From Candidatus Omnitrophota bacterium (GTDB lineage: Bacteria > Omnitrophota > Omnitrophia > Omnitrophales > JACROU01), in NCBI GenBank assembly GCA_029261035.1, contig JAJDCD010000025.1:186001-250000 (forward strand): 64,000 nt of DNA. Reading direction: 5' to 3'. The position numbers and the translations under genes are program-made. The notes under the pieces are model-generated. The model was given only the letters and a program-made list of their open reading frames with translations. It was not told where the DNA came from and ran no database searches. Positions 25,016 through 42,049 of the stretch are shown here, piece by piece. Position 1 is the stretch's first letter. Each line of letters opens with the position of its first letter.

Positions 25016-25182
25016 CGGGTATCCCTAAATGGGTTTTGCAAACACTATTAATGAATATTTAACTGCACATAATTGCGGTTATTTTAACCTAATCGTTATT
25101 TTTTGGCTATGAACAAGATTTAATAAAAGCATAAACTATTATAAATAAAGGACTTAGGATTTTGTGAAAATTTGACTTTTTC

Positions 25183-26004
25183 CTATTTCAGCCCTAAAAC
25201 GTCCTTCATCGTATAAAAGCCCGATTTTTTCGAAGACAAAAACTGAGCGGCTCTCAAAGCACCCGAAGCAAAAGAATCTCGACTTGAAGCTCGGTGTGAA
25301 ATTTCAATCGTTTCTCCCTGCGTTAAAAAACGAACGGTATGTTCCCCTACAATGTCTCCACCCCGAAGCGCATGAACACCAATACTTCCTTTTTTGCGTT
25401 CACCTGTAAAACCTTTTCTACCATAAACTCCCATTTCATCCAGATCCACTTCTCTGCCCGCAGCAACACGTTTTGCTAATTCCAAAGCAGTGCCACTGGG
25501 TGCGTCATTTTTAAAACGATGATGCGTCTCGATAATCTCAACATCATATTCTTCATCCAATAATTTCCCTAACAATTCAGAAAGTTGAAATACAATATTT
25601 ACACCCACACTCATATTCGGAGCCAAAACCACAGGAGTTTTTTTAGAAAGAGTTTGAACTTCTTCTAATTGAGCTTTTGAAAATCCTGTTGTTCCAATAA
25701 CAATTCCTTTTTTAAATCCAGCTAACTCTCGAATATGTTCCATAGTGACATCGGGATGAGTGAAATCAATAACAACTTCTGCATTCCCTATTTGTTCAGA
25801 AAGAGAATCTGAAACCTGTACCCCATTCGCACTAATACCTGAAATCAGGTTAGGTAACTGAACTCCAATTTGAGGATGCCCTTTTGCTTCAACGGCGCCT
25901 ACGATATCATACGGGCCTTGATCTGCTAGCTCAAGAATTCTCATACCCATTCTTCCGCAAGCTCCCGCAACGATAATTTTTGTATTTGAATTTTTTTGAC
26001 TCAT
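25183..26004 (-). CDS. dapB: 4-hydroxy-tetrahydrodipicolinate reductase
   Basis: 273 residues. Reduces the DapA product with NAD(P)H in the diaminopimelate/lysine pathway. N-terminal Rossmann motif VAGACGRMG, VIDFTHPD, IGTTGFS, APNMSVGVN, and the DapB signature ETHHRFKNDAPSGTALELAK with the catalytic His-His and Lys. Standard length. Last gene of the arg-lys-dap run, 12 bases after dapA. I found no terminator in the 167 bases downstream. Confidence 0.97.
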   Translation of the reverse strand: MSQKNSNTKIIVAGACGRMGMRILELADQGPYDIVGAVEAKGHPQIGVQLPNLISGISANGVQVSDSLSEQIGNAEVVIDFTHPDVTMEHIRELAGFKKGIVIGTTGFSKAQLEEVQTLSKKTPVVLAPNMSVGVNIVFQLSELLGKLLDEEYDVEIIETHHRFKNDAPSGTALELAKRVAAGREVDLDEMGVYGRKGFTGERKKGSIGVHALRGGDIVGEHTVRFLTQGETIEISHRASSRDSFASGALRAAQFLSSKKSGFYTMKDVLGLK

Positions 26005-26016
26005 AACACCATTCCT

Positions 26017-26907
26017 TTACGCTTTGGCTTTTTTCTTTCGTTTGATCAGACCATGCTTTGTTAACATACTTTTCAACTTTGCCTTATTTGCTTTTTCCAT
26101 CGTACATAATGGCAATCGAAACTCTTCTCTAACCATTCCCATTAAAGACAAAGCCGTCTTCACAGGGATTGGGTTCGTCTCTATAAATAAAGATTGAGCC
26201 AAGTCATAGATCTGATAATGAATCTGTTGAGCATCTTCAATATCACCATTCAAGTAAGAATGCACCAATCGAGACATTAAATTAGGAATAATATTAGCCA
26301 CCACCGAGATCACCCCTCTAGCACCTACAGAAAGAAGAGGTAAGGTCAACGCATCATCCCCTGAAATAACGGTAATGTCAGAAGATTGTATAATTTCTGT
26401 CGCTTGATTCAAACTCCCACTAGCCTCTTTAATGGCAACTACATTAGGAATTTTAGCCAGTTGAGTCACTGTCTTAACATCCATAGAAACACCCGTACGG
26501 CTTGGCACATTATATAAAACAAAAGGAATATCTACTTTTTTAGCCAAAAACTCAAAATGTTTATACAAACCTATTTGAGTGGGCTTATTATAATAAGGAG
26601 TAACCACAAGCACACCATCTGCCTTAATCTTCTTAGCATGCTTCACAAGCAGCACTGCTTCAGCCGTGTTATTAGACCCCGCCCCACAAATAACAGGAAC
26701 TTGTTTATTAACAACCTCTGTTACATAACTCAGAACATCGCAATGCTCTTTATGAGACATAGTGGCAGCCTCACCCGTCGTACCACAAGGCACAATTACA
26801 TCCGTTCCATTTTCTAAATGGAACTCCACTAACCTCTTCAAACCCGGAAAATCAATCTTTCCATTCTTAAGTGGTGTAACCAAAGCCACCATCGATCCCT
26901 GGAACAT
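26017..26907 (-). CDS. dapA: 4-hydroxy-tetrahydrodipicolinate synthase
   Basis: 296 residues. Condenses pyruvate with aspartate semialdehyde. Motifs: GTTGEAATMSHKEH, VTPYYNKPTQIGLYKHF, LYNVPSRTGV with the catalytic Tyr, and VVAIKEASG with the Schiff-base Lys near 161. A short basic tail (KRKKKAKA) is unusual. GGAGA precedes the ATG. A 370-base gap full of repeats separates it from dapF upstream, while dapB follows after 12 bases. Confidence 0.97.
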   Translation of the reverse strand: MFQGSMVALVTPLKNGKIDFPGLKRLVEFHLENGTDVIVPCGTTGEAATMSHKEHCDVLSYVTEVVNKQVPVICGAGSNNTAEAVLLVKHAKKIKADGVLVVTPYYNKPTQIGLYKHFEFLAKKVDIPFVLYNVPSRTGVSMDVKTVTQLAKIPNVVAIKEASGSLNQATEIIQSSDITVISGDDALTLPLLSVGARGVISVVANIIPNLMSRLVHSYLNGDIEDAQQIHYQIYDLAQSLFIETNPIPVKTALSLMGMVREEFRLPLCTMEKANKAKLKSMLTKHGLIKRKKKAKA

Positions 26908-26928
26908 AAATGTCTCCTTTGTTTATAG

Positions 26929-27264
26929 CTATCGGCCATCAGCTTTTAGCTTCTTCCGCCTGATGCGGATCTGCCAAGCTTTACGGCAGATAATAAATCC
27001 TAAACCAACTCTTATAAACAGCAAACGCCTTTATCCCTAACACTAAATTAACAGTGCAAATAACAACCACGTATCTCGTTATTAATACATAACGAGACAA
27101 CATTATACCTAGGAAACAAGAGCCCTCGATGGCGCTCTTGTTTCCAACACCTTCACACACTCCCAAAGCGAATAATAGAAGAGGTTAGGTAGCGTTCCAC
27201 GCCGCGAGTTGCGCAGCCCTAAAGGGCGAGCATGTCTGAGCGCCGGGGAACGCTACTCAACCTC
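26929..27264. repeat. Composite hairpin element, copy 2 (long form)
   Basis: Fills most of the 370-base gap between dapF and dapA. Starts with AGCTATCGGCCATCAGCTTTTAGCT-like sequence, then small GC hairpins, then AATCCTAAACCAACT, shared with copy 1 (7638-7652). A TCTCGTTAT/ATAACGAGA hairpin matches copy 1's position but with altered arms. Next a hairpin with AAACAAGAGC/GCTCTTGTTT arms around a TCGATG-containing loop (about 27112-27144). The large terminal hairpin has outer arms at 27181-27200 and 27245-27264 (three mismatches), internal-loop strings GCCGCGAGTT (27201-27210) and TGTCTGAGCGCC (27233-27244), and apex GCCCT/AGGGC. No coding sequence recognised. Confidence 0.8.
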
Positions 27265-27277
27265 CAACACATCTCAA

Positions 27278-28087
27278 CTAAGTAACAATCAACTCCCCAC
27301 GAAAAGAGATATGAGCTTCTCCTTCCATAAAAACTTCTTTAACATCATCCCCTTCAAGCTCAAAACAAATCTTCAAAACTTCTCCACCCGTAGTAAATAC
27401 ATTCACGGGAGACTTTACTTTATTTTGAAGCGCTGAAATAAGCGCACTTGCCGTAGATCCAGTACCACAAGCAAACGTTTCAGACTCAACACCTCTCTCG
27501 TAAGTTCTAACAGAAATATCATGAGGGCCTGTTACTTCAACAAAATTAACATTCACACCTAAAGGACTAAACTTCTCGTGAAAACGAATCGCTCCACCAA
27601 TTTCATTTACAGGAAAGTCTGAAAGACTCTCTGGAAAATGAATCACATGAGGAACTCCCGTATTAATAAAGGATAATTCTTTTTTATTTCCATCGACATC
27701 CAGTTCAAATGCCGCTTTATAATCTATAGGTTTCGTTAGCTGAACTTTAATTTTCTTTTCCGAAATCACCGCAGAAATAATACCTGCTCCTGTTTCAATT
27801 CTCATTTTATCTGGAAACTTTAAAAGCTCATGGGCAAACAAAGCAATACAACGAGAACCATTCCCACACATATCCGCTTCAGATCCATCCGCATTAATAA
27901 TTCTCATTTTAAAATCTGCATCATCTGATTTCTCTACCAACAACACGCCATCCGCTCCAACACCGAACTGACGTACACACACATGTTGAGCAAATTCATT
28001 CACATCGGTTATAAAGCTCTCTCTGTGGTCAATGACAACAAAATCATTACCCGATGCTTGCATTTTATAAAAAGTAATTGTATTCAT
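27278..28087 (-). CDS. dapF: Diaminopimelate epimerase
   Basis: About 269 residues from the ATG at 28087 (MNTITFYKMQASGNDFVVID), preceded by GGATAAG; a TTG four codons upstream is the alternative. Interconverts LL- and meso-diaminopimelate with two catalytic cysteines, found here in ADMCGNGSRC and FACGTGSTAS. It lies between lysA (upstream) and dapA (downstream), with a hairpin element in the gap on each side. Confidence 0.97.
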   Translation of the reverse strand: MNTITFYKMQASGNDFVVIDHRESFITDVNEFAQHVCVRQFGVGADGVLLVEKSDDADFKMRIINADGSEADMCGNGSRCIALFAHELLKFPDKMRIETGAGIISAVISEKKIKVQLTKPIDYKAAFELDVDGNKKELSFINTGVPHVIHFPESLSDFPVNEIGGAIRFHEKFSPLGVNVNFVEVTGPHDISVRTYERGVESETFACGTGSTASALISALQNKVKSPVNVFTTGGEVLKICFELEGDDVKEVFMEGEAHISFRGELIVT

Positions 28088-28145
28088 AATCTTATCCAAT
28101 CTGTAGCTATAAGCTCTCAGCTAATACCCCTTAGCTAAATCAACG

Positions 28146-28328
28146 ATCATCACACATGTGATGATGCTGTTACTTCACAAAACAAACGTGCTCGACGTGC
28201 TTTTGTTTTGACCCTCTATCACCACCCAAAAACAAATTCCAAAAAGGCCAGAGAAAATTCCCCGCCGCGAGTTCACAAAAGCGACTTCACTTTTGTGCTG
28301 TCTGAGCGCCGGAGAACTTTCTCTGGCC
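28146..28328. repeat. Composite hairpin element, copy 3 (short form)
   Basis: In the 256-base gap between lysA and dapF. Palindrome ATCATCACA/TGTGATGAT (28146-28165); a hairpin with CAAAACAAA/TTTTGTTTTG arms around GCTCGACG (inner arm degenerate); and the large hairpin with outer arms GGCCAGAGAAAATTCCCC (28246-28263) and GGAGAACTTTCTCTGGCC (28311-28328). Inner arms are CACAAAAG/CTTTTGTG (28274-28281, 28290-28297) and the internal-loop strings GCCGCGAGTT (28264-28273) and CTGTCTGAGCGCC (28298-28310). It lacks the middle module of copies 1 and 2. Confidence 0.85.
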
Positions 28329-28355
28329 ACCCAACTCATATTTACCCCAACATCC

Positions 28356-29615
28356 TTACTTCAAAAAAGAAGGGATTTTTTCTCCTCTAACTAAATCTTC
28401 TATGGTTTCCCTCTTACGAATCACTTCAAACTGATTCCCCTTCACCATAACCTCACACACACGAGGTCGGGTATTGTAATTACTTGCCATGGTAAAACCA
28501 TAAGCTCCAGCACTCATAATAGCCAGTAAATCTTTATCTTGAAAATCAGGCACTCTTCGATCTTTTGCAAAGAAATCTCCTGTTTCACAGATAGGGCCAA
28601 CAATATCCGACTTTATAGATTTCAGTTTTATATTCTTCATCACAGGCTTAACATCGTGGTAAGCTTCATACAAACTAGGTCTTATCAAGTCGTTCATTGC
28701 CCCATCCACAATAATAAAATTTTTAGCCTCTGTCTTTTTTGTATAAAGAACCTGTGTAACAAAAGCCCCTGCATTCCCTGCAATAAAACGTCCTGGTTCA
28801 AAAATAACCTTAAATTTCTTACTTTTAATCAAAGGTAAAATTTTAGAGGCGTATTCAGCCGCAGTTTGAGGCTTCTCATTATCATAAGTAATTCCAAGCC
28901 CACCCCCTAGATTTAAAAATTTTATTTTTATCCCCTGGTTCTCTAAGTTCGTTACAAAAATCATTACTTTTCTAAAAGCGCGGACAAAAGGTTCTCCCGT
29001 TGTAATTTGAGATCCAATATGAACATGGATACCACACATATTGACATAAGGATATCGATTCTTATCTAAGAATAGGGCTCGTGCCGTATCCATATCAATC
29101 CCAAACTTACTTTCTTTTTTTCCTGTTGTAATATAGTCATGCGTATTTGCAGATACGTCTGGATTTACACGAATTGAAATACTTGCTTTCTTTTTTAATT
29201 TAGTTGCGACACGATTAATAGCAACAACCTCAGCAGCGGACTCCACATTAAAAAGTAAAATCCCTTTCTGAATCGCAAATTTAATTTCTTCATCCGTCTT
29301 CCCAACTCCCGCATAAACTATCTTATTTGGCTTCACCCCTGCTTTTAATGCTCTGTACAGCTCTCCACCAGAAACAATATCAAGACCAGACCCTTTTTTA
29401 ACTAACGCTGTAAGCACAGCTATATTCGAGTTTGCTTTTGTCGAATAACAAATTAAAGGCTTAATGGATTTAAATGCTTTAGCCAACTCTGTGTAAGAGT
29501 CTGTAAAAGACTTATAACTATAAACATAAAAAGGAGTGCCTACTTTTTTTGCTATATCTTTAATAGCAACAGACTCACAATATAAATCATTTTTCTTATA
29601 ATCAAAATTACGCAC
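28356..29615 (-). CDS. lysA: Diaminopimelate decarboxylase
   Basis: 419 residues. PLP enzyme of fold type III that turns meso-diaminopimelate into lysine. The PLP Lys is in ICYSTKANSN, the Gly-rich phosphate loop in NLGGGLGI, EPGRFIAGNAG follows, and the catalytic Cys is in CETGDFFAKDR; all family motifs are present. Starts with GTG (MRNFDYKKND) behind AAAGGT. 24 bases after argH. A composite hairpin element follows before dapF. Confidence 0.97.
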   Translation of the reverse strand: MRNFDYKKNDLYCESVAIKDIAKKVGTPFYVYSYKSFTDSYTELAKAFKSIKPLICYSTKANSNIAVLTALVKKGSGLDIVSGGELYRALKAGVKPNKIVYAGVGKTDEEIKFAIQKGILLFNVESAAEVVAINRVATKLKKKASISIRVNPDVSANTHDYITTGKKESKFGIDMDTARALFLDKNRYPYVNMCGIHVHIGSQITTGEPFVRAFRKVMIFVTNLENQGIKIKFLNLGGGLGITYDNEKPQTAAEYASKILPLIKSKKFKVIFEPGRFIAGNAGAFVTQVLYTKKTEAKNFIIVDGAMNDLIRPSLYEAYHDVKPVMKNIKLKSIKSDIVGPICETGDFFAKDRRVPDFQDKDLLAIMSAGAYGFTMASNYNTRPRVCEVMVKGNQFEVIRKRETIEDLVRGEKIPSFLK

Positions 29616-29639
29616 TTGTTCTTACCTTTCTCAAAAAAT

Positions 29640-31040
29640 CTATTTTAATTTATTCTTCCACTTAACTAATTGCTTCTTAACACTAGAAGGAGAAGTACTT
29701 CCATGCGTTTTCTTTTTCGTGATAGAAACCGTTGGATTATAAATTTTATACACACTTTTATCTACTTTACTACACAGCTTCTGATAAACATCCAGTGAAA
29801 GTTGGTCCAATTCAAAACCCTCTGAGATTGCATATTGAACAATCTCCCCAGAAATTCGATGAGCATCAGAAAAAGACAACCCTTTACCCACTAAATAATC
29901 CAGCAAATCAGTTGCATACAAAAAACTATCCTCGGAACAGATCTGACAATTCAAATGGTTGACTTGAGTTGTTTTAATGGCTCCTTGTAAAACTTCCAGA
30001 GTTGCAAACGCCAAATGAAGCGCTGGAAACAAATCTTCCTTATCCTCTTGAAGATCTCGGTTATAACACAAAGGCAAACCTTTTTGATTCATCAACGCAG
30101 ACACCAAATGGCCCACAGCTTTACCGCTTCGCCCTCGAGTCAATTCAAATAAATCAGGGTTCTTTTTTTGCGGCATCAAACTGGAACCCGTAGCATAAGC
30201 ATCGTCCAAAGTAATAAAATCAAATTCGGTTGAATTCCACAAAATCATATCTTCGGATAATCGAGAAAGATGAATATACATTTGCGAAACCCCAGACAAC
30301 ACTTCAATCACATAGTCTCGATCTGCGGTCGCATCAATGCTATTGTCTGAAACTTTTGAAAAACCTAATAACTTCTTCAAATTATCTCGAGACAAAGAGT
30401 AAGTCGCACCACCTAAAGCTCCACTCCCTAAAGGCAGAACATCGATTCGCTTCAAAGCATCCTGAAAACGTTCCTTATCTCGCTCAAGCATTTCAACATA
30501 GGCTAAAATCGCATGAGACATAGAAACAACCTGCGCTCGTTGCAAGTGAGTATAACCGGGTATCGTTACCTTTTGATTCTTCTGTGCAAATTGCACAAGC
30601 ACTTTTTGAAAGTGAGTCACAGACTTAATCAGCTCCGGTATCACCTTTTTCAAATAGAGTCGCAATGCTGTTGTCACTTGATCATTCCGACTTCGACCTG
30701 TTCGAAGCTTCTTGGCTACAGCCCCTGCTGATTTTTCCAACTCAACCTGAATCAAAGAATGCACATCTTCATGTTCGTAACACAAATCTAAAAACTCTTT
30801 CGGCGTTTTATCGATTTCATAATACTTCATAAACCGTTTTTTGACAGAGGCTAGGCCTTTGAGCAATTTAGTCTTCTCTGCAGATTTCAAAATCTTAGCT
30901 TGGGCCAACACTTTTACCCACGCTTCATTCAGTTGAATATCTGCTTCAAAAAGCTCAAAATCGGTTGCTAAAGAATAAGAGAAAGCTTTTGCTTCTTCAG
31001 CTAATTCTGATTTAAATCTTCCGCCCCACATTTTTTTCAT
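29640..31040 (-). CDS. argH: Argininosuccinate lyase
   Basis: About 466 residues from the ATG at 31040 (MKKMWGGRFKSE, the usual argH start). Splits argininosuccinate into arginine and fumarate. The signature GSSLMPQKKNPD with catalytic Ser is present, along with TGRSRNDQVTT and the HxH-region GYTHLQRAQ. The start lies inside the end of argG: the two genes overlap by 29 bases in different frames, so translation is probably coupled. The tail is basic (KKKTHGSTSPSSVKKQLVKWKNKLK), normal for the family. Confidence 0.96.
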   Translation of the reverse strand: MKKMWGGRFKSELAEEAKAFSYSLATDFELFEADIQLNEAWVKVLAQAKILKSAEKTKLLKGLASVKKRFMKYYEIDKTPKEFLDLCYEHEDVHSLIQVELEKSAGAVAKKLRTGRSRNDQVTTALRLYLKKVIPELIKSVTHFQKVLVQFAQKNQKVTIPGYTHLQRAQVVSMSHAILAYVEMLERDKERFQDALKRIDVLPLGSGALGGATYSLSRDNLKKLLGFSKVSDNSIDATADRDYVIEVLSGVSQMYIHLSRLSEDMILWNSTEFDFITLDDAYATGSSLMPQKKNPDLFELTRGRSGKAVGHLVSALMNQKGLPLCYNRDLQEDKEDLFPALHLAFATLEVLQGAIKTTQVNHLNCQICSEDSFLYATDLLDYLVGKGLSFSDAHRISGEIVQYAISEGFELDQLSLDVYQKLCSKVDKSVYKIYNPTVSITKKKTHGSTSPSSVKKQLVKWKNKLK

Positions 31041-32202
31041 AAGGAAGTCCCCACAATTTAATAAAACCTTCTGCTGATTTATGATCAAACATATCTCCTT
31101 CAGAATATGTCGCTAACGCTTCAGAATACAAAGCATAAGGAGATTTGCGTCCTGCAATAATCACATGTCCTTGATCTAACTTTAACTTCACAATTCCCGT
31201 CACTCGATCTTGGTGCTTTGAAACAAATGCATCAAAAGCTTCCTTCAAAGGAGTAAACCAAAAACCATCATAAACTAAGTCCGCATACTTCTCGGAAATA
31301 AGCTTTTTATAATGGAGGTGCGCTCGGTCAAATACCAACGCTTCTAACTCTTCATGAGCTGTCATTAATACCGTTCCTGCCGGAGATTCATAAATCTCTC
31401 GACTTTTGATCCCCACCACTCGGTTTTCAATTAAATCGAGCCGACCCACACCATACTTCCCCGCTAAGTCGTTTAGCTTTTCAATCATGGCAACAAGAGG
31501 CATCTTCTTGCCATTTAAAGAAACCGGAATGCCTTTCTTAAATTCCAAAGTCACAGTAGTAGATTTTTTAGGAACCTCAGACAAAGCTCGAGTCATCACG
31601 TAAGCATCTTTAGGAGGCTCTACCCAAGGATCTTCTAGAACACCTGCTTCAATCGCAATACCCCAAATATTTTTATCAATCGAATAAATACTTTTTTTTG
31701 TAATATCAATTGGTATTTTATTTTGCTTTGCATAATCAATCTCTTCTTCACGTGTTTTGAATTCCCACTCCCGTAAAGGAGCAATGATTTTCAATTTAGA
31801 ATCCAAGCTTCGAATTCCCACTTCAAGCCGAACCTGGTCATTCCCTTTTCCAGTACAACCATGAGCTACATATTTTGCTTTTTCTTTTTGCGCAATCTGA
31901 ACCAAATGCTTAGAAATCAAAGGTCGGCCTAAAGAAGTCGCTAACAAATACTTCCCTTCATACTTAGCATGTGCCTGTAATGCAGGAAGAATAAAATCTT
32001 CAGCAAATTCCTTCTTAAGATCTTTAATATAAACTTTTGAAGCCCCTGATGCTTTTGCCTTTTTTTCTAATGCTTTTTTATCAGGCACTTCCCCTATAAA
32101 TGCAGAAAAGCAAATAACCTCCACATTATATTTATCTTTTAACCACTTGATTGCACATGAAGTATCTAATCCACCTGAGTAAGCTAAAATTACTTTATCC
32201 AT
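31012..32202 (-). CDS. argG: Argininosuccinate synthase
   Basis: 396 residues. Joins citrulline and aspartate with ATP. The P-loop AYSGGLDTS (8-16) typical of N-type ATP pyrophosphatases is present, as are HGCTGKGNDQVRLE and GRKSPYALYSEALATY near the C-terminus. Standard length. Follows argF after a 154-base gap holding an inverted repeat, and overlaps argH at its 3' end by 29 bases. Confidence 0.97.
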   Translation of the reverse strand: MDKVILAYSGGLDTSCAIKWLKDKYNVEVICFSAFIGEVPDKKALEKKAKASGASKVYIKDLKKEFAEDFILPALQAHAKYEGKYLLATSLGRPLISKHLVQIAQKEKAKYVAHGCTGKGNDQVRLEVGIRSLDSKLKIIAPLREWEFKTREEEIDYAKQNKIPIDITKKSIYSIDKNIWGIAIEAGVLEDPWVEPPKDAYVMTRALSEVPKKSTTVTLEFKKGIPVSLNGKKMPLVAMIEKLNDLAGKYGVGRLDLIENRVVGIKSREIYESPAGTVLMTAHEELEALVFDRAHLHYKKLISEKYADLVYDGFWFTPLKEAFDAFVSKHQDRVTGIVKLKLDQGHVIIAGRKSPYALYSEALATYSEGDMFDHKSAEGFIKLWGLPYEKNVGRKI

Positions 32203-32220
32203 AACTCTTCCTTTCTCAAT

Positions 32221-32359
32221 TAGCGGGTAGCGTTTAGCGTAGAGCGGATAGGTTCCTTAATCAAAAGATTCTCTTACCAAACCACCCTCTCCTAAGTTCA
32301 AGAAATCTAAAAGCTTTTGGCAAAGGATCTATACGCTAAACGCTATGCGCTATACGCTA
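32221..32359. repeat. Inverted repeat of TAGCGTTTAGCGTA type between argF and argG
   Basis: Left arm 32221-32251 (TAGCG, GG, TAGCGTTTAGCGTA, GAGCGGATAG) and right arm 32329-32359 (CTATACGCTAAACGCTATGC then GCTATACGCTA) are near-reverse complements around a spacer of about 77 bases. A single arm of the same family lies at 7562-7585. The right arm contains the argF stop codon (TAG, 32357-32359), so the insertion reaches the last codon of that gene. It looks like a small non-autonomous element; no gene inside. Confidence 0.75.
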
Positions 32360-33268
32360 TTTCTTCAACAACCACAAAAGAATCGCTTTTTCTGCATGTA
32401 ATCGATTCTCTGCTTGATCAAAAACAATCGATTTGCTACTTTCCATAATCTCATCCGTTATTTCTTCATCCCGATGAGCCGGCAAACAATGCATAATAAA
32501 AGGAGGCTTTTTTGCTTTAGAGAGTAACTTCTTATTTAGTTGAAACCCTTTAAACTCCGAAAGCTTTTTCTTCTTCAGTTTTTCCTCACCCATACTCACC
32601 CAAACATCGGTATAAACAAAGTCTGCAAATTTAATAGCGCCTTCTGGAGTCGTTTTCTGCTGAATCAAAGCCCCCGATTTTTTAGCTAAAGCCATAATTT
32701 CTTTTAAATCCTTTGGATTTACTTGATGCTTTTTTGGGCAAACAAAATGAAAATGGCCGCCAATTTTAGCAAATAAATAAAGCAACGACGTTAGTACATT
32801 ATTTCCGTCACCCACATAAGCAACAATAGCCTGTTTCTTTTTACTCTTTTCTATCACCGTTAAATAGTCTGCCAAAGCCTGACACGGATGAGACCAATCA
32901 CTTAAACCATTAATCACAGGCACTTTCGAATAGTCCGAAAAATCCTCAATCGTTTTATGCTTAAATGTTCGAAGCACAATAGCATCCCAATATCGAGATA
33001 AAACTCGCGCCTCATCATGGAGAGCTTCTCGAGAACCCAGCTTAATATCGTGAGGACCTAAATACTGAGCTTCTCCACCCATCTGAGTCATAGCAACCTG
33101 AAAAGACACACGCGTCCGAGTCGAAGGCTTTTCAAAAACCAACCCCAAAGACTTTCCTTCTAAATGTCTAAGGTATTTCTTAGGGTGCTTCTTAACCTCA
33201 ACCGCAATCCCAATAATATCCAAAATATCCTTCTTAGATAAATCCTTAATCCCCAACAAATGCTTCAT
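32357..33268 (-). CDS. argF: Ornithine carbamoyltransferase
   Basis: About 303 residues from the ATG at 33268, preceded by GAGGGG; the codon before it is TTG. Makes citrulline from ornithine and carbamoyl phosphate. The carbamoyl-phosphate loop STRTR (about 49-53), HPCQALADYLT and HCLPAHRDEEI are all present, the last two distinguishing it from aspartate carbamoyltransferase. The stop TAG lies inside the right arm of an inverted repeat. The gap from argD upstream holds composite element copy 4. Confidence 0.96.
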   Translation of the reverse strand: MKHLLGIKDLSKKDILDIIGIAVEVKKHPKKYLRHLEGKSLGLVFEKPSTRTRVSFQVAMTQMGGEAQYLGPHDIKLGSREALHDEARVLSRYWDAIVLRTFKHKTIEDFSDYSKVPVINGLSDWSHPCQALADYLTVIEKSKKKQAIVAYVGDGNNVLTSLLYLFAKIGGHFHFVCPKKHQVNPKDLKEIMALAKKSGALIQQKTTPEGAIKFADFVYTDVWVSMGEEKLKKKKLSEFKGFQLNKKLLSKAKKPPFIMHCLPAHRDEEITDEIMESSKSIVFDQAENRLHAEKAILLWLLKK

Positions 33269-33300
33269 CAAATCCCCTCTTCTCTACAGCTTCTATAACG

Positions 33301-33486
33301 ATCGTCACACATGTGACGATACTGCCAACTTCACAAAAGAAAGTTACTCGATGTAACTTTCTTTTGCCCCTCCACACACACCACCAAGCTTAGTAACTTA
33401 AAGGCCAGGGATCGTTCCCCGCCGCGAGTTCACAAAAATAGCTTCACAATTTTTGTGCTGTCTGAGCGCCGGGGAACGATCCCTGG
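33301..33486. repeat. Composite hairpin element, copy 4 (short form, best preserved)
   Basis: In the 236-base gap between argD and argF. Palindrome ATCGTCACA/TGTGACGAT (33301-33320). Hairpin with perfect 14-bp arms CAAAAGAAAGTTAC/GTAACTTTCTTTTG around TCGAT (33334-33366). Large hairpin with perfect 16-bp outer arms CCAGGGATCGTTCCCC (33405-33420) and GGGGAACGATCCCTGG (33471-33486), inner arms CACAAAAAT/ATTTTTGTG (33431-33439, 33449-33457), and internal-loop strings GCCGCGAGTT (33421-33430) and CTGTCTGAGCGCC (33458-33470). Arms differ from copies 1-3 while pairing is kept. Confidence 0.88.
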
Positions 33487-33507
33487 TCTCCAACCCACTC
33501 CTAAACC

Positions 33508-34728
33508 CTAAAACGCATGACACCACTTACTAAGCGCATAATCCAACATATTCATAGCTGTATCAACCTGCTTCTTCGTCACCGTCATCGCAGGTAAAAT
33601 CCTCAAAATATTTCCTTGAGTCACATTAATAATCAACCCCTGCTTGAGACACTCATCCACAACAGGCTTTCCCGTAATAGACAATTCCATCCCTAACATC
33701 AAACCACGTCCGCGAATTTCTTTAACAACAGGATAACGTCGTTGCAATTTTTCTAAATGAAGTTTTAAATAATCTCCCAACTCCTGAGTCTTTTCTAACA
33801 AACTCTCTTTCTTAATGGCCTCAAATACGGCCAAGGAAGCTCTGGAAACCAAAGGATTTCCTCCATAAGTAGAACCATGAGATCCTGGAGTTAACACATT
33901 TTTCACTTTATTCGAAACAAGCGTAGCTCCAATAGGGACTCCCCCCCCTAACGATTTCGCCATGGTCATAATATCAGGCTTAACTTTCAAATGTTGAAAA
34001 GCAAACATCTTCCCTGTACGCCCCATTCCTGTTTGAACCTCATCAAAAATTAATAAAATCTTTTTGTCATTACATAGCTTTCGCAAGTTTTTAACAAACT
34101 CCCCTGTAGCCACATGAATACCACCCTCACCTTGAATTGGTTCTAATAAAATTGCAGCTGTTTTAGAAGTAACTAACTTCTTCACAGAATCAAAGTCGTT
34201 AAAAGTTGCATATTTAAACCCCTGCACTAATGGTTTAAAACCATCATGCATCACATCTTGTCCTGATGCGGACATCGCAGCATAAGAACGCCCATGAAAA
34301 GATTGCTTAAACGTAATGATTTCAGATCGTTTTTTCTCAGCCCCAAATTTCTTAGCAAACTTAATAGCAACCTCAACCGCTTCAGCCCCCGAATTACTAA
34401 AAAACAATTTACCAGGAAAACTATGCTCCACAATCGTTTTAGCCAGTCGAGCTTGAGTCAGGTTTAAAAAGTTATTAGGAATATGAATCACCTTTTTGGA
34501 TTGTTCTTTAATTGCAGAAACAACCGCAGGATGACAATGACCCAAACCACTAACAGCCCAGCCAGGGAAAAAGTCTAAATACTTCTTTCCCTCCAAGTCC
34601 CAAACCCAAGACCCCTTACCCTTCACCAAGCAAACAGGTAACTGTGTATACGTTGGCAAAATATAATCAGAGTACATTTTTTGAACATCTTTTGTTTTCA
34701 ATTTAAATTCCTCAATTAGAGTAGTCAT
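33508..34728 (-). CDS. argD: Acetylornithine aminotransferase
   Basis: 406 residues. PLP fold type I class III aminotransferase, converting N-acetylglutamate semialdehyde to N-acetylornithine with glutamate. FSNSGAEAVE, SFHGRSYAAMSASGQ, LIFDEVQTGMGRTG and the PLP Lys in MTMAKSLGGGVPIGA are all present. May also act in lysine synthesis as succinyl-DAP aminotransferase, as known for some homologues (not tested here). Four bases after argB. Confidence 0.96.
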   Translation of the reverse strand: MTTLIEEFKLKTKDVQKMYSDYILPTYTQLPVCLVKGKGSWVWDLEGKKYLDFFPGWAVSGLGHCHPAVVSAIKEQSKKVIHIPNNFLNLTQARLAKTIVEHSFPGKLFFSNSGAEAVEVAIKFAKKFGAEKKRSEIITFKQSFHGRSYAAMSASGQDVMHDGFKPLVQGFKYATFNDFDSVKKLVTSKTAAILLEPIQGEGGIHVATGEFVKNLRKLCNDKKILLIFDEVQTGMGRTGKMFAFQHLKVKPDIMTMAKSLGGGVPIGATLVSNKVKNVLTPGSHGSTYGGNPLVSRASLAVFEAIKKESLLEKTQELGDYLKLHLEKLQRRYPVVKEIRGRGLMLGMELSITGKPVVDECLKQGLIINVTQGNILRILPAMTVTKKQVDTAMNMLDYALSKWCHAF

Positions 34729-34732
34729 AAAA

Positions 34733-35587
34733 TTAGATAATTATCTCTGTTCCAATTCCTTTATCTGTAAAAACTTCCAGCAAAAGAGAATGCTTGATCC
34801 GCCCATCAATGATATGAGCTTTCTTAACACCTCCTTGAAGTGCTGTAATAGCTGAGTTCACTTTTGGAATCATTCCAGCAGTAATCACTTTATTCTCGAT
34901 TAAACCTTCAACCTCATCTACATGCAAAGAAGAAATTAAAGAGTTTTCATCTTCTGCATTTCTCATAATCCCGTGAACATTCGTTAAGATCAGTATTTTC
35001 TGCACATTCATTGCAACAGCAATTTTAGCCGCCGCCTCATCTGCATTCACGTTATAAGTCTCACCTTTCGAATCAATACCCAAGGGATAGATAGCAGGGA
35101 TAATATTAAATTCTGTCAACTCTTTAACAGGCATAATATTCACAGACTCTACATCCCCAACAAAACCAACATCTCCATTTGCTTGATGCTTTGTTACATT
35201 CAAAATTTCATTATCATGTCCACTCAAGCCAATAGCACGCGCACCTAATTGATTAATATCATGCACAATGCTTTTATTCAGCTCGGCAAGCGTTTGATTA
35301 ACCACATCAATAGTTTCCTGATCCGTCACGCGTAAACCATTAACAAACTTAGTTTGAATCCCTTTTCGCTTTAGGTTCTCTGTAATCGCAGGCCCCCCAC
35401 CATGAATCAAAATAGGCTTAATTCCTACATAATTCATAAATACTAAATCTTCAATCACATTGTGGCGTATTTCAGGATTATCCATTGCGGCACCACCGTA
35501 CTTAATCAAAACTTCTTTCCCTCGAAATTTTTTAATGTAAGGCAACGCTTCAATTAAAATATTAGCTTTCTCTACCAATGTTTCCAT
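34733..35587 (-). CDS. argB: Acetylglutamate kinase
   Basis: 284 residues. Phosphorylates N-acetylglutamate. Amino-acid kinase motifs are present: VLIKYGGAAM (26-35), ILIHGGGPAI (about 59-68), and NVNADEAAAKIA. The C-terminal KVITAGMIPKVNSA is typical. An N-terminal helix of about 20 residues before the kinase core, as in arginine-sensitive hexameric forms, hints at feedback inhibition, but that is inference. A 147-base gap with a long AT-rich inverted repeat precedes it. Confidence 0.96.
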   Translation of the reverse strand: METLVEKANILIEALPYIKKFRGKEVLIKYGGAAMDNPEIRHNVIEDLVFMNYVGIKPILIHGGGPAITENLKRKGIQTKFVNGLRVTDQETIDVVNQTLAELNKSIVHDINQLGARAIGLSGHDNEILNVTKHQANGDVGFVGDVESVNIMPVKELTEFNIIPAIYPLGIDSKGETYNVNADEAAAKIAVAMNVQKILILTNVHGIMRNAEDENSLISSLHVDEVEGLIENKVITAGMIPKVNSAITALQGGVKKAHIIDGRIKHSLLLEVFTDKGIGTEIII

Positions 35588-35613
35588 TACCTTCTCCTAC
35601 CATATTTAATTCA

Positions 35614-35728
35614 AAAATTTAAAGTAAAAAGTCTAAACCATAATTAAAAATCCAAAATTTCTTCTTATATCAAAAGATGTTCTTTTTAAATTTTGATTTA
35701 TGGTTTTTAGCCTTTACTTTTAAATTTT
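35614..35728. repeat. Long AT-rich inverted repeat between argJ and argB
   Basis: Left arm about 35614-35660 and right arm about 35688-35728 are near-reverse complements over about 40 bases with a few mismatches. Matching strings include TAAACCATAA against TTATGGTTTTTA, and AAATTTAAAGTAAA against TTTACTTTTAAATTT. The loop is about 27 bases. It looks like a small non-autonomous transposon-type element; no coding capacity. Confidence 0.7.
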
Positions 35729-35734
35729 TACTTT

Positions 35735-36946
35735 CTAAGTCGTGTATGCTGAGTTAATACGAACGTATTTACTCGTCAAATCAGAAGTTAAAAAAGAAAC
35801 CTTTGCATTCCCCTGATTTAAAACAATTCGCAATTGAAAATGTTTTTTCTTCAATGTTTTTCTCACCAAAGAAAGATGCTTATCAATCCCTTTACCTAGA
35901 GAGAAAATAAGATTCTTATCAAAATAAATCTCTAGCTTGTCCCAATGAATGTTTTGTTTTGTTGCACCCAAGGCTCCAATCACACGCCCCCAATTGGGGT
36001 CCGCCCCCGTCAACATCGTCTTCACCAACATCGAATTGGCTACTTGCCGTGCAAAAATTTCAGCACCCTTCTCTGTAGCTGCTTTCTCGACAACAACATC
36101 ACAAACGCGAGTTACGCCCTCACCATCTTCCACAAGTTTTAAAGAAACCTCTTTACAAAACTCTATAAGAATTTCAACAAACTTTAAATACTCCGGACCT
36201 TTATTTTGAATTGTCTTATTTTTAGCTAAACCATTCGACAAAATAAAAACCGTATCATTTGTACTCATATCATTATCAATGGCTATTCGATTAAAAGTTT
36301 TTGAAACAGCCTCTTTCAACGCTGACTGCAACAGCGTTTTCTTAATACTTAAATCTGTTGTTATAAAACAAAGCATGGTTGCCATATTGGGATGCACCAT
36401 ACCCGCACCTTTAGCAATTGCGCCCAAACGCACTTTTTTTCCATTGAAGAGAAATTCAATAGAAAGCTCTTTCGTTAGCTTATCTGTAGTCAGTATCCCC
36501 AAAGCCGCATCTTGATCCCCAGCACGAGATAGTTGATTTACCAACTTAGGAATTCCTCGTTGAAATTTAGGCCAAGGAAAAGTCCTCCCAATAACTCCTG
36601 TAGAACAAACTAATATTTCTTTTTCCTTGATCTTCAACTGCGAAGCTAGTTTTTTTACAGACTCTTTAACCGTCTTCTGACCTATAGCGCCATTAAAACA
36701 ATTAGCATTTCCACTATTACAAAGAATAGCCTTATGCGTCTTCCCTTTAATTGCTTTCATAGAATAAAGAACAGGCCATGCCTTTGCTTTGTTGGTTGTG
36801 AAAACAGCAGCAGAAACACAAGGCGTCTCTGAATAAATCAAAGAAGCATCCATTTTGCGTTTCTTTATTCCACAATGAATTCCAGAAGCCAAAAATCCTT
36901 TCGCAACCGAAACACTCCCTTTACTACGCCAGTCAAATTTTGCCAT
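35735..36946 (-). CDS. argJ: Glutamate N-acetyltransferase / amino-acid N-acetyltransferase
   Basis: 403 residues. Transfers acetyl from N-acetylornithine to glutamate; bifunctional members also use acetyl-CoA. Autoprocessing site in KGAGMVHPNMATML, where the Thr becomes the β-chain N-terminus. CSTGVIGRTFPW, NDMSTNDTV and the C-terminal region GADPNWGRVIGALG are present. ArgJ makes the pathway cyclic, so argA and argE may not be needed; neither is in the window. One base after argC. Confidence 0.96.
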   Translation of the reverse strand: MAKFDWRSKGSVSVAKGFLASGIHCGIKKRKMDASLIYSETPCVSAAVFTTNKAKAWPVLYSMKAIKGKTHKAILCNSGNANCFNGAIGQKTVKESVKKLASQLKIKEKEILVCSTGVIGRTFPWPKFQRGIPKLVNQLSRAGDQDAALGILTTDKLTKELSIEFLFNGKKVRLGAIAKGAGMVHPNMATMLCFITTDLSIKKTLLQSALKEAVSKTFNRIAIDNDMSTNDTVFILSNGLAKNKTIQNKGPEYLKFVEILIEFCKEVSLKLVEDGEGVTRVCDVVVEKAATEKGAEIFARQVANSMLVKTMLTGADPNWGRVIGALGATKQNIHWDKLEIYFDKNLIFSLGKGIDKHLSLVRKTLKKKHFQLRIVLNQGNAKVSFLTSDLTSKYVRINSAYTT

Positions 36947-36947
36947 T

Positions 36948-37973
36948 TTAAACGAGTCCTAATGTTTCATCATATCCAAATCGGATATTCATATTTTGAA
37001 CAGCTTGACCACTAGCACCTTTTACTAAGTTATCAATAGCGCTAATCACAATCACTTCTTTAGATCGAGCAGAAGACCAAATACCAATATCACAAAAATT
37101 GGTTCGAACCACATCTTTAATAGAAGGAAACGTTCCCAATGGCTTCACTCGTACAAAAGGCTCATCTTTGTATGCTTCTTTATAAGCCTTCAAAATCTTT
37201 TGAGGGGTAACGCCTTTAGCTTTCTTCAAATAAATCGTCGACAAAATCCCACGTTCAATAGGTAATAAATGGGGAACAAAAGCGATACTTACTTTCTTTC
37301 CCGAAAACTTCTTTAACAAAGCTTCTACTTCCGGCATATGTTGATGTTGGTTTACCTTGTATGCTTTAAAGTCTCCGTCTACGGTACAAAAGTGTGTCGC
37401 TTCAGACAGTTTCTTACCGGCACCACTCACTCCCGACTTTGAATCAACTACAATAGATTCAAAATCAACAAGTTTATTTTCAAGGGCTGGTTTCAACCCC
37501 AACAAAATACTTGTAGGATAACACCCAGGATTAGCGATGAGCTTTGCTTTTTTCAGCTTAGACCGAAACACCTCCGGTAATCCATAAACAGCATCTCCCA
37601 ACAAAAGCTTTTTAGTGTGCTTTTTCCCATACCAGATTTCATAAAGCTGAGCATCTTTAATTCGGAAGTCTGCCGAAAGATCAATTACCGTCTTCCCTTT
37701 TTTATATAAATCATAAGCCAAATCCATTGCCTGTGTGTGTGGTAATGCAAGAAAAACCACATCCGATTCTTTTACAACTTTATTCAACTTAAACGTTTCC
37801 AAAGTAAGCCCATGATTTTTAGGTAAAGTAGGAATAATTTCCTCAATATCCTTTGGGTCTTTACTTCGTGTTGTTAAAGAAGTAATTTTTACATTAGGAT
37901 GTTGTTGTAAGATCCGAACGAGCTCAATTCCCGTATAACCCGTAGCACCTACAACAGAAACACGAATCATCAT
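36948..37973 (-). CDS. argC: N-acetyl-gamma-glutamyl-phosphate reductase
   Basis: 341 residues. Reduces N-acetylglutamyl phosphate with NADPH. Rossmann motif VVGATGYTGIELVRIL (8-23), catalytic Cys in NPGCYPTS, and HQHMPEVE are present. First gene of the arg-lys-dap run; AGAGGAG precedes the ATG, and M1/M2 are adjacent ATG codons. The 222-base leader from the inferred promoter contains a terminator-like hairpin (38043-38100), so expression is probably controlled by attenuation. Confidence 0.97.
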   Translation of the reverse strand: MMIRVSVVGATGYTGIELVRILQQHPNVKITSLTTRSKDPKDIEEIIPTLPKNHGLTLETFKLNKVVKESDVVFLALPHTQAMDLAYDLYKKGKTVIDLSADFRIKDAQLYEIWYGKKHTKKLLLGDAVYGLPEVFRSKLKKAKLIANPGCYPTSILLGLKPALENKLVDFESIVVDSKSGVSGAGKKLSEATHFCTVDGDFKAYKVNQHQHMPEVEALLKKFSGKKVSIAFVPHLLPIERGILSTIYLKKAKGVTPQKILKAYKEAYKDEPFVRVKPLGTFPSIKDVVRTNFCDIGIWSSARSKEVIVISAIDNLVKGASGQAVQNMNIRFGYDETLGLV

Positions 37974-38042
37974 TTTCTCCTCTTAAGTTCTATGAACTTT
38001 CAATCATGATACTGCTAAACAACTTATAACTATTCCAAAGAC

Positions 38043-38100
38043 AAAAAAACCAGAAACTATGCCTAGGGTTTAGAACCCTTTAGAAAGGATTAGCTTCTGG
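38043..38100 (-). terminator. Terminator-like hairpin in the argC leader (candidate attenuator)
   Basis: On the minus strand CCAGAAGCTA (38100-38091) pairs with TAGTTTCTGG (38059-38050) in ten pairs including one G-T. An inner stem GGGTT/AACCC lies at the apex, and seven T residues (38049-38043) follow directly. It lies 70 bases upstream of argC with no gene ending nearby on this strand, so it must act within the leader or end a small RNA of about 150 nt. Leader hairpins upstream include GGGGCA/TGCTCC, CCTT/AAGG, GTATC/GATAC and CTTGG-containing stems that could compete with it. Confidence 0.75.
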
Positions 38101-38201
38101 TAGTCCAAGTTTCTCTTAGGTATCAAAATTTCATTCGATACAATTATCCTTCGTTATCCAAAGGTACTGGAGCAAAAAATGCCCCCTAAAGAAAAGAGCC
38201 A

Positions 38202-38230
38202 ATTATAGAGGAAAAAACCCAAGAAATCAA
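38202..38230 (-). promoter_or_regulatory. Sigma-70-type promoter of the argC operon
   Basis: TTGATT (38230-38225), 17 bases, TATAAT (38207-38202) on the minus strand, close to consensus. The inferred transcript start near 38195 gives a leader of about 220 nt before argC. No ARG box (ArgR site) was recognised around it. Confidence 0.75.
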
Positions 38231-38316
38231 ACATCCATACATCCTAGCTCAATTCAATACTAATTCCCTAAGGGAGATCTTCGTCTTAAGTTCAAAATAG
38301 AGGCTCTTCCACAAAG

Positions 38317-38373
38317 CTTTCTCTCGTAGAGAAAGGAGCTGTAATTCAGGCTAAATACTATTAAATTTTAGCC
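38317..38373. other. Two hairpins in the argC-rnc gap
   Basis: CTTTCTCT/AGAGAAAG around CGT (38317-38335, extended by flanking AG/CT) and GGCTAAA/TTTAGCC (38349-38355, 38367-38373). They lie in the 471-base divergent gap, between the argC promoter and the rnc -10 element. They could belong to a small RNA or a longer rnc leader. The rest of the gap, 38231-38316, shows nothing I can name. Confidence 0.35.
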
Positions 38374-38390
38374 CTACCGCTTGTATCTCA

Positions 38391-38399
38391 TGCTATATT
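38391..38399 (+). promoter_or_regulatory. Extended -10 promoter for rnc
   Basis: TGCTATATT: the TGn extension joined to a near-consensus -10. No good -35 is seen. The inferred start near 38406 leaves a leader of about 40 bases before the rnc ATG at 38445. The same TGCTA(T/G)(A)(A/C/T)T pattern heads rplM and hrcA. Confidence 0.55.
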
Positions 38400-38444
38400 A
38401 TGCGCTTACTTGCTTTGCTGTAGCCATTCGTAGAAAGGTACCTA

Positions 38445-39359
38445 ATGATACAAAAGCTTAAGAAACACGTCGATTGGAAAAAATTAGAGAAAAGTTTAGG
38501 GGTTAAGCTTAAGAATCACAAATTTGCTCTTGCAGCATTAACCCACCCATCTTACCGAAACGAAATGAGACTGCACAATTTACTCTGTTTCGAAAGAATG
38601 GAATTCTTAGGAGATTCTATTTTAAACTTTACCATCAGTGAAATCTTATATGAAAAATATAAAGATGGTGATGAAGGAATGCTCTCTAAACTAAAATCCA
38701 TCCTCGTATCCGGGAAAATTCTAGCAAAAATAGCTAAGAAATTAAAACTAAGACAATTCATGATTTTAGGAAGAAGTGAACGTCATCATCCTGATTTGGA
38801 AAGAGCAAAAATTATGGCGGATACTTTCGAAGCTATTCTAGCTGCTATTTATTTTGATCGAGGGCTTCCAACAGCACAACGTTTCATAAAAAAACAATTT
38901 AAATTTTATTTCAGCCCTAAACGCCTCCACACTATTGGCGTCAGCCCAAAAACAATCCTGCAAGAATTATCACAAAAACATTTAAAAATTTTACCACAAT
39001 ACCAATCAGAGTTAAAAAAAGGTCTTTTTCATTGTACTGTGAGCTTAAAAAAAATCGGAAAAACAAAAGGTTCAGGGAGAACAAAAAAAGATGGTGAAGA
39101 AGCGGCCGCAAAACTGCTTATTGAAAAATTTGAATCCACAAAAGTTCCAACTACAATCACTTCAAGAATTCAAAGAAAAACAGAACCCAAGTCAAATTCC
39201 ACAACAACGGATGCCCCTAAAAAGAAAATAGTTTTAAAAAAATCGAAAAAGAAAGCATCTCCTAAAAAGCCTACTTTAAAGACAAGCGTCAAAAAGAAAA
39301 CTACAACTTCCAAAAAACCAGTTTCTAAATCAAAGAGTCCTGCTAAAAAGAAGAAATAA
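38445..39359 (+). CDS. rnc: Ribonuclease III with lysine-rich C-terminal tail
   Basis: 304 residues against about 225-240 for most RNase III. Nuclease domain with signature ERMEFLGDS and acidic residues E53, D57, D126 and E129; a dsRNA-binding domain follows (about 165-230, with GSGRTKKDGEEAAAKLLIEKF). It processes rRNA and cleaves structured RNA. The extra 70 or so residues (231-304) are Lys/Ser/Thr/Pro repeats such as KKIVLKKSKKKASPKK and resemble disordered nucleic-acid-binding tails. Alone on the plus strand, its stop lies 5 bases from the stop of the convergent AsmA gene. Confidence 0.95.
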   Translation: MIQKLKKHVDWKKLEKSLGVKLKNHKFALAALTHPSYRNEMRLHNLLCFERMEFLGDSILNFTISEILYEKYKDGDEGMLSKLKSILVSGKILAKIAKKLKLRQFMILGRSERHHPDLERAKIMADTFEAILAAIYFDRGLPTAQRFIKKQFKFYFSPKRLHTIGVSPKTILQELSQKHLKILPQYQSELKKGLFHCTVSLKKIGKTKGSGRTKKDGEEAAAKLLIEKFESTKVPTTITSRIQRKTEPKSNSTTTDAPKKKIVLKKSKKKASPKKPTLKTSVKKKTTTSKKPVSKSKSPAKKKK

Positions 39360-39364
39360 AGTTT

Positions 39365-42049
39365 CTACCCAAAAATAGAGCTGATAATTTTAGAAGCTTG
39401 GTCCACGGTATCCTGCATAGAGCTATCTTCAGAACCTCCACTAAAAATTGAGCCTATTTTACTAATGATGGCACGTCCAATAGCCCTTTTATCAACTGAA
39501 ACCTTAGGGTCTGAAATCGTTCCACTCAGCCTAAAAGGAACAACTACAGCATTTGTTTCGGAGGGTGTTTGTTGCAACTCAAATTCTGAGATTTCGCCAA
39601 GTTGAGCCTTAGAATGAAAATCTATATTCTCATCAAAATCTACGATACCTTCACTGGTTACGTATAATTTATTTGAAAGCAAATAAGTGTCTGCAAATTT
39701 CACCTTTCGATCTGCAATCTGAATACGTCCTTTGAGATTTCGAAAGCTCGTAAATTTAACTAAAGGATCACTTAAATTAAAACTCACCAATTCCGGCAAA
39801 GTTGAAAAAGCCCCTAATAAATTTACCCCATAAATTTCCCCGTTACTAATATCAAAAGCACCTTGGCCAATAATCGTTTCTTCCAACTGATCCCGACCCC
39901 CTATTTCCCCTTGAACATTTAAGCTAGCGTTAAGAAGCCCCGACATAATTTTTTTCTCAAATTTCTGAAATAGGATTTCCATCGGCACGTTAACACTATC
40001 CAACTTCAAAACATAACGAGGAGGAAGAGAATCGAAAGACGCCTTTCCTACTACTTCCACAGAACCCTGGCCTGCTCTTATTTTTAAAGTTTGAATATCC
40101 GCCTTTCCATTATCAAACTGAATTACTCCTTTCAAATCCGTCAACGAAATACCTTGAAACAAAACTTCTTTAAGGCTGATATTAATATTGCCTGTCGCTT
40201 TTCTTAAAGGCTCGGGCAAACTGTTTGTGACCCGAGAGGAATCCGGAGAAGCTAAAAGGGAGTCAAAGGAAATTAGAGAAGAAGCCTCTTCTGCATAAGC
40301 GGTTCTTTCCCAAAAAGAAGATCTTGCTGTTTTAATAGCTTGAGTTTGCGCTTGAGCGATCGTAGGATTTTGAATTTCTTTAACAGTGTCTATAAGTGAG
40401 ATAAAATCATCAACCACAAATTTATCCGATTGAATATCCATTTCAAATTGAGGAGCCAAAGGATCATTTAAAGCTAAATTCATTTTAAGATCCGTGTCAT
40501 TCAATTTTAGCAATACTTCCTGAAAGGCTATTCGATCCGAATTAAAATCAAAAGAACCGGACAAATGCCGCACCAACACCTTATCTCCAGAAGACAAGGT
40601 TACGGAATCCAAAATAGTATGCGTCCCATATTTAGATTGTTTAAAATCTGTCAACTTCCCTTTTAAAGTAGCCAATAGCTTCGCTTCACCCTCCAAAGTT
40701 AAGCCCTTCATAGGAACAAAAACTCCATCAAAATCACTAAGAGGAAATTTATTAGATATAAAGTTTACGTCTCCCTCAAGAGTCTCTAGACTCAACCTTG
40801 CACTCGTACCTTTCACATTCATACTTCCAAAACGGATATTAAATTCCACATCTTCTAACTCTTCCGAAGCAATTTTAGACTGTAATGAAGCTGAAAAACT
40901 TTGCCCTGACTTCTTCTTTAAAACTTGAGGCACTTCCAGTAGAGCTTCTTTTAAATCGACATCTAAACTCACCGCTAGATTATCCGCAGGACCTTTCACA
41001 ATAACCGAAGCAGCGGCATTCCCTTCAGCAGTCCAATTTGAGAGATAACCTATCTCAGCCAATAAATTCGAAGGTAATTGTGGGATGAATTCGTTTAAAT
41101 TAAGGTCTCGGATACGTAATGTAAAATCAATTTGAGGTTGTTCACTCATGCTCACACTGCCAAAACTAACCCCCTCAAGACCTAGGCCAGTAATATTCAT
41201 GTTATCCATTTGAAAAGTTTGATTAGCTTGAGTCCAACTGTAATCCGTCTCAAACTTAAGAGGAATAGAAAAAGGCAGCGACTCAACAACCTCCCCTTCC
41301 ACTACCGTCTTAATTGTATTTAATTTACCTTCACCATAATCCAAATCTTGAAAAGTTAATATAGAGGTCCCATTCACATCCTGAGATGTAGAATTAAACG
41401 AAACAACCCCTTGTGAACCCAACATCAAAGATCGGATTGGCAACGAAGTTCTAATCAACCCCGACTTCACTAGTACTGCCCAATCTAACTGAGAAACATC
41501 ATAACGCATACTCATTTCATTAAATTCAAACTTACCTTCATCAAGAGATAAAAAAGCATCTCCTTCCACTTCAAAAGTACTATCTGTTTCAAATAAATGT
41601 CCTTCAAAAGAAAATCTCGAAGGGGTTTTAAAATCAACCGACTTCACCCTTCCTTCCACATCCGTTAATTGAATAAAAGCTTTCTTTCCCTTTTCCACCC
41701 ATTCATAGTAAACATCAACACCTTTCATCTGAACAGAACTCGCTTCAATATTTTTAAAAATTAATGGGAATAATTTCAAAAATACTTTTGCTTTTTTTGC
41801 TTTTAATACAGGAATTTCCTTTGAGGATTTAGGAGAGTAAACAACAACATTAGAAACCTCAATAAATGCAGATGGAATAAACCCTACACCAATTTCACCA
41901 ATTTCAAATTGGTCCCCTGCACGAGCTTTTATTTGAGATGTAAGATAGTCTTGAATATCAGAATTTGAAACAAATAAAGGAAGAGCAAAAATAACAGCAG
42001 CAACAATTAGAACAATAACAATAAGAAGAATGCTAATAACTTTTTTCAT
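39365..42049 (-). CDS. AsmA family protein
   Basis: 894 residues. An N-terminal signal anchor (MKKVISILLIVIVLIVAAVIFALPLFV) is followed by a long periplasmic β-rich region. The C-terminal AsmA-like part includes GKADIQTLKIRAGQGSVEVVGKASFD and IQGEIG/SGTISDPKVSVD-type repeats. AsmA and its TamB/YhdP relatives bridge the periplasm and are thought to help lipid transport to the outer membrane. Which of these activities this one has cannot be read. Preceded by a small lipoprotein gene 33 bases upstream. Confidence 0.88.
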   Translation of the reverse strand: MKKVISILLIVIVLIVAAVIFALPLFVSNSDIQDYLTSQIKARAGDQFEIGEIGVGFIPSAFIEVSNVVVYSPKSSKEIPVLKAKKAKVFLKLFPLIFKNIEASSVQMKGVDVYYEWVEKGKKAFIQLTDVEGRVKSVDFKTPSRFSFEGHLFETDSTFEVEGDAFLSLDEGKFEFNEMSMRYDVSQLDWAVLVKSGLIRTSLPIRSLMLGSQGVVSFNSTSQDVNGTSILTFQDLDYGEGKLNTIKTVVEGEVVESLPFSIPLKFETDYSWTQANQTFQMDNMNITGLGLEGVSFGSVSMSEQPQIDFTLRIRDLNLNEFIPQLPSNLLAEIGYLSNWTAEGNAAASVIVKGPADNLAVSLDVDLKEALLEVPQVLKKKSGQSFSASLQSKIASEELEDVEFNIRFGSMNVKGTSARLSLETLEGDVNFISNKFPLSDFDGVFVPMKGLTLEGEAKLLATLKGKLTDFKQSKYGTHTILDSVTLSSGDKVLVRHLSGSFDFNSDRIAFQEVLLKLNDTDLKMNLALNDPLAPQFEMDIQSDKFVVDDFISLIDTVKEIQNPTIAQAQTQAIKTARSSFWERTAYAEEASSLISFDSLLASPDSSRVTNSLPEPLRKATGNINISLKEVLFQGISLTDLKGVIQFDNGKADIQTLKIRAGQGSVEVVGKASFDSLPPRYVLKLDSVNVPMEILFQKFEKKIMSGLLNASLNVQGEIGGRDQLEETIIGQGAFDISNGEIYGVNLLGAFSTLPELVSFNLSDPLVKFTSFRNLKGRIQIADRKVKFADTYLLSNKLYVTSEGIVDFDENIDFHSKAQLGEISEFELQQTPSETNAVVVPFRLSGTISDPKVSVDKRAIGRAIISKIGSIFSGGSEDSSMQDTVDQASKIISSIFG

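Follow-up and report, generated by a model that had tools for sequence, protein, structure and literature searches.

A candidate transcription-attenuator leader at the head of an arginine/lysine operon in a Candidatus Omnitrophota bacterium

We analysed a 64,000-nucleotide stretch (the window) of a Candidatus Omnitrophota genome (G000; 2.7 Mb, 26 contigs) and propose, with moderate confidence and from sequence, that the leader of argC is a transcription-attenuator leader of an arginine/lysine operon. The preliminary description of this DNA had suggested either an attenuator or a riboswitch here; the attenuator stands as the best reading, the riboswitch does not. In the proposed mechanism, RNA polymerase would start near 38195 on the minus strand, transcribe about 150 nt, and then reach an intrinsic terminator at 38101–38043; some polymerases would continue into argC and the downstream genes, in a proportion probably set by a cellular signal. 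We infer the termination itself, the regulation of read-through, and a signal tied to arginine or lysine. Attenuation is supported by the location of the terminator between the promoter and the start codon, by the divergent orientation of the neighbouring gene rnc, by retention of the terminator in the sister genome G002, and by the recurrence of such terminators in the order. The terminator probably limits how often the operon is read, and the leader is a fresh instance of an already known kind, the leader terminator.

The gene argC (36948 to 37973, minus strand, ATG at 37973) is the first of an eleven-gene run, argC-argJ-argB-argD-argF-argG-argH-lysA-dapF-dapA-dapB, that extends on the minus strand from 37973 to 25183. 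Upstream, rnc starts at 38445 on the opposite strand, so that the two genes form a divergent pair; this pair (window 36948–39359) is retained in most genomes of the order. G002 has these eleven genes too, in unchanged order. All eleven genes would plausibly depend on the argC leader; the run contains spacers of 147–370 nt, and because gaps of this size could hold them, internal promoters are possible. A sigma-70-type promoter lies before the leader at 38202–38230 (minus strand), with TTGATT at 38230–38225, a 17-nt spacer, and TATAAT at 38207–38202. The preliminary description had named this element, and our scan bore it out: it matched at 10 of 12 positions and was the top sigma-70-like match within 37000–39500, while the interval 25000–38300 held three 10/12 matches in all, the argC promoter among them. 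Transcription is expected to start near 38195.

Between this promoter and argC, and oriented toward argC, lies the intrinsic terminator (38043–38101, minus strand), composed of the arms ACCAGAAGCTA and TAGTTTCTGGT with an apical hairpin, followed by T7. Its outer arms occupy 38101–38091 (ACCAGAAGCUA) and 38059–38049 (UAGUUUCUGGU), forming a stem of 11 pairs, one of which is an A-U pair with the first T of the T run; the run itself, at 38049–38043, ends 69 nt ahead of the argC ATG. The hairpin energy was −23.0 kcal/mol and none of 100 dinucleotide-shuffled leaders yielded a hairpin plus T tract as strong, in agreement with the stem and seven T residues noted earlier. Folding of the terminator region gave a z-score of −2.9, and the whole leader folded at −53.8 kcal/mol compared with −37.7 ± 3.9 for shuffles (z-score −4.1). 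In 1.18 Mb of G000, with genes called by a simple ORF caller, there were 92 divergent leaders, and the argC terminator ranked within their three strongest leader-terminator loci. As the upstream neighbour rnc is divergent, the terminator cannot belong to another gene in the window. We take it to be real and probably functional as a leader terminator. The region between the terminator and argC (37974–38042, minus strand) contains a Shine-Dalgarno sequence and, directly 5' of the argC ribosome-binding site, a perfect palindrome, AAGTTC-ATA-GAACTT, at 37985–37999, which may act as an operator or form a hairpin in the mRNA. Elsewhere in the genome (contig C18, about 343196–345500, minus strand), a glutamine-synthetase-like gene (703 aa) with a divergent leader also has a hairpin of −15.8 kcal/mol with a T run, 43 nt ahead of its start.

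The family to which G000 belongs is represented here by three genomes, the others being the sister genera G001 and G002, whose ArgC proteins are 69% and 74% identical, respectively, to that of the window. The G002 argC promoter, TTGACT-N17-TATAAT, is followed about 85 nt later by a terminator, ACCAGAGAUUAACCC..GGGUUGAUAUCUGGU plus T7, and none of 100 shuffles of the G002 leader produced one as good. The ACCAGA/UCUGGU stem base, the T run, TTGGAC, and a GAATGAA..TTTGAT block are common to the G000 and G002 leaders. Alignment with the G002 leader (L014) located TTGGAC at 38103–38108 (minus strand), immediately 5' of the terminator and part of the CTTGG switch segment discussed below, and the conserved block, GAATGAA..TTTTGAT in the window, at 38120–38136 (minus strand), where it includes the three-codon frame ATG AAA TTT TGA. 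Any covariation would have to be read from these two sequences. The argC leader of G001 is short and the terminator is absent from it; of the two sister genera, G002 keeps the element at this place and G001 lacks it, a mixed picture for the conservation in relatives that the preliminary description had made a test of the element. In a search of 47 genomes, model R1 found only the G000 and G002 argC leaders and two weak matches. The match in G004 was rejected as a leader paralogue because it falls within a coding frame resembling enoyl-CoA hydratase; that in G036, the weaker of the two, had an E value of 0.5. At the DNA level, the leader matched nothing within the family except short words attributable to chance. 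A 1674-aa frame (L157:2157–7181), co-directional with argC, is inserted between rnc and argC in G002; because a large co-directional gene precedes argC there, the G002 terminator could also serve that upstream gene.

Across the order, in which related genomes are not independent, 12 of 42 argC leaders carried a compact terminator directed toward argC (dG ≤ −12, dG per nt ≤ −0.4, 6 or more T in 8), compared with 0 of 42 when the leaders were reversed. This contrast is somewhat weakened because the compact criterion was chosen after an initial looser scan had returned numerous large but imperfect folds in either orientation. The 12 leaders represent five families (f1, f2, f3, f4, and f6); terminator sequences differ between families, and ten genomes beyond G000 and G002 carry different ones. 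For the control gene uvrA, leader terminators numbered 3 of 30 in the forward and 1 of 30 in the reversed orientation, so that the enrichment of argC over another gene is only modest. Three argC leaders from one genus (L046, L049, and L033, in G027, G026, and G025) are about 80–85 nt long, are without a terminator, and share similar GATGGGTC- and GGAAGGAATCC-like segments; possibly they are translational control leaders.

The leader upstream of the terminator is itself strongly structured, with a minimum free energy of −27.5 kcal/mol compared with −16.0 ± 2.8 for shuffles, none of 300 of which folded as low. The predicted fold of this 5' domain (38111–38196, minus strand), found only in G000, comprises a closing helix (38195–38186 with 38119–38111) and three small hairpins at 38185–38169, 38164–38148, and 38141–38120, in agreement with the several small hairpins reported before. 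This arrangement, with a terminator downstream of three hairpins and a predicted closing helix, resembles known riboswitches, and the domain might bind arginine, lysine, or an intermediate and so control the terminator. We regard such a metabolite riboswitch as quite unlikely. In a riboswitch it is normally the aptamer that is conserved best, whereas a covariance model of the 5' domain had no match in the 383 other genomes of the phylum (384 including G000), G001 and G002 among them, although distant relatives could be missed by a model built from a single sequence. In G002 the part of the leader that precedes the terminator folded at −13.6 compared with −13.8 for its shuffles, i.e., with no excess folding. 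Being unmatched in the phylum and having a G002 counterpart that is not excess-folded, the domain is unlike a conserved aptamer. The leader had no Rfam match at gathering or relaxed thresholds, so that the Rfam search that had been recommended returned no known family. Although leaders of the lysine riboswitch type with a termination platform are alike in placing a multi-hairpin leader and a terminator before a lysine-related operon, the window leader has neither an Rfam match nor a conserved aptamer, and the suggestion of a new riboswitch is left unsupported.

The switch helices proposed for such a mechanism were also weak. In the preliminary description, the CTTGG string before the terminator had two alternative partners, CCTAAG upstream and CCAG in the 5' arm of the terminator, giving exclusive structures. 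These pairings exist on paper, but they amount to only −1.8 and −2.0 kcal/mol compared with −23.0 for the terminator, and exclusive structures are not supported. Until the 3' arm has been made, the terminator 5' arm pairs with upstream sequence at 0.29, less than the mean of its shuffles (0.52). For G002, high-probability pairing of the terminator 5' arm involves another upstream segment (GGGUAGUUUC); this upstream pairing was 0.69 compared with 0.54 for shuffles, and 15% of shuffles were equal or better. Measured against shuffles, therefore, no antiterminator exceeding chance was found in the window or G002 leader. A competing antiterminator is expected for RNA-switch attenuators; protein-dependent types may need none.

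The lack of a conserved antiterminator or sensor also fits a terminator that acts as an unregulated brake, either lowering operon expression by a constant factor or ending a small RNA unit of about 150 nt, with argC expressed from leaky read-through. The strong folding of the 5' domain, a property of many small RNAs, and the different upstream structure in G002 agree with this possibility, which we nevertheless consider doubtful: terminators recur ahead of argC in several families, which is more in keeping with control of this gene than with a small RNA unrelated to it, and no other promoter-like site of at least 9/12 was found by the sigma-70-like match scan between the terminator and argC.

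The leader also differs from known classes of amino acid operon attenuators. Like trp and his leader-peptide attenuators, it has a promoter, a leader, and a terminator before an amino acid biosynthetic operon, but unlike them it lacks a leader peptide enriched in codons for Arg or Lys: 38196–38043 encodes only MKF, or MYRMKF from a poorly spaced TTG. The claim that an Arg-rich leader peptide is lacking thus holds, as does the lack of a T-box sequence; T-box leaders likewise have a terminator within an amino acid operon leader, but no Rfam T-box match was obtained here. The tiny frame ATG AAA TTT TGA (ATG AAC ATT TGA in G002), just 5' of TTGGAC, might couple attenuation to translation, as it belongs to the block that G000 and G002 share and precedes TTGGAC by 14 nt in the former and 11 nt in the latter. 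Its codons, however, are not conserved in kind (MKF versus MNI), no series of Arg or Lys codons occurs among them, and in the window its ribosome-binding site is badly spaced, making this explanation very unlikely. With the switch weak, the aptamer unconserved, Rfam blank, and the frame devoid of consecutive regulatory codons, attenuation or a constant brake is the best reading. Counting against attenuation are the lack of the terminator in G001, of a better-than-chance antiterminator, and of a conserved sensor, together with the co-directional gene in G002 and the modest contrast with uvrA.

Premature (5') terminators constitute a large class of attenuators, most of them uncharacterised (Naville and Gautheret 2010, PMC2965389). 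The argC leader resembles the members of that class in that its intrinsic terminator follows the promoter and precedes the start codon, and resembles the rpsL leader of the same study in being present across relatives without a conserved sensing structure. It differs from them in heading an arginine/lysine operon in Omnitrophota; neither argC nor arginine occurs in the main text of that paper. Our literature searches yielded nothing relevant on an arginine riboswitch or an argC attenuator, and no paper linking Omnitrophota with riboswitches.

The arginine repressor ArgR was not detectable in the order: its C-terminal domain, PF02863, was found in 0 of 47 genomes, whereas 8 of 14 control genomes were positive. 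This result, together with the conservation of TTGGAC and the ACCAGA stem base between both genera, would suit an RNA-binding regulator that recognises these elements and mediates antitermination or termination. We judge that explanation very unlikely, as the conservation is seen in two sequences only and no candidate regulator was found; a search of G000 for the ANTAR domain, run without a positive control, gave no match.

In relatives, a 25-bp element with the consensus TAACtTnTTaAaTTGACAAaGGATA (pattern TAAC(T/C)T.TT.A.TTGACAA.GGATA) overlaps the argC −35 hexamer in 25 argC upstream regions (e.g., L035, L036, and L018) from four families, f3–f6. Scanning of whole genomes returned 28 matches, spread over 27 genomes: 25 were at argC, and the three located elsewhere had one or two mismatches each; a reversed control pattern gave one match. 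The element is absent from the family of G000, including the window. Most of the argC promoters bearing it are perfect TTGACA-17/18-TATAAT promoters, which would suit repression, and in sequence the element looks like a candidate operator of an unknown arginine regulator. A shift of arginine control, in a lineage without ArgR, from this promoter operator to leader attenuation with an undescribed RNA- or protein-borne sensor is conceivable, but we consider it unlikely. Control of arginine synthesis in Omnitrophota appears undescribed, and the argC leader offers a concrete site at which it can be tested; the operator-like element in relatives points toward an unknown regulator and merits separate study.
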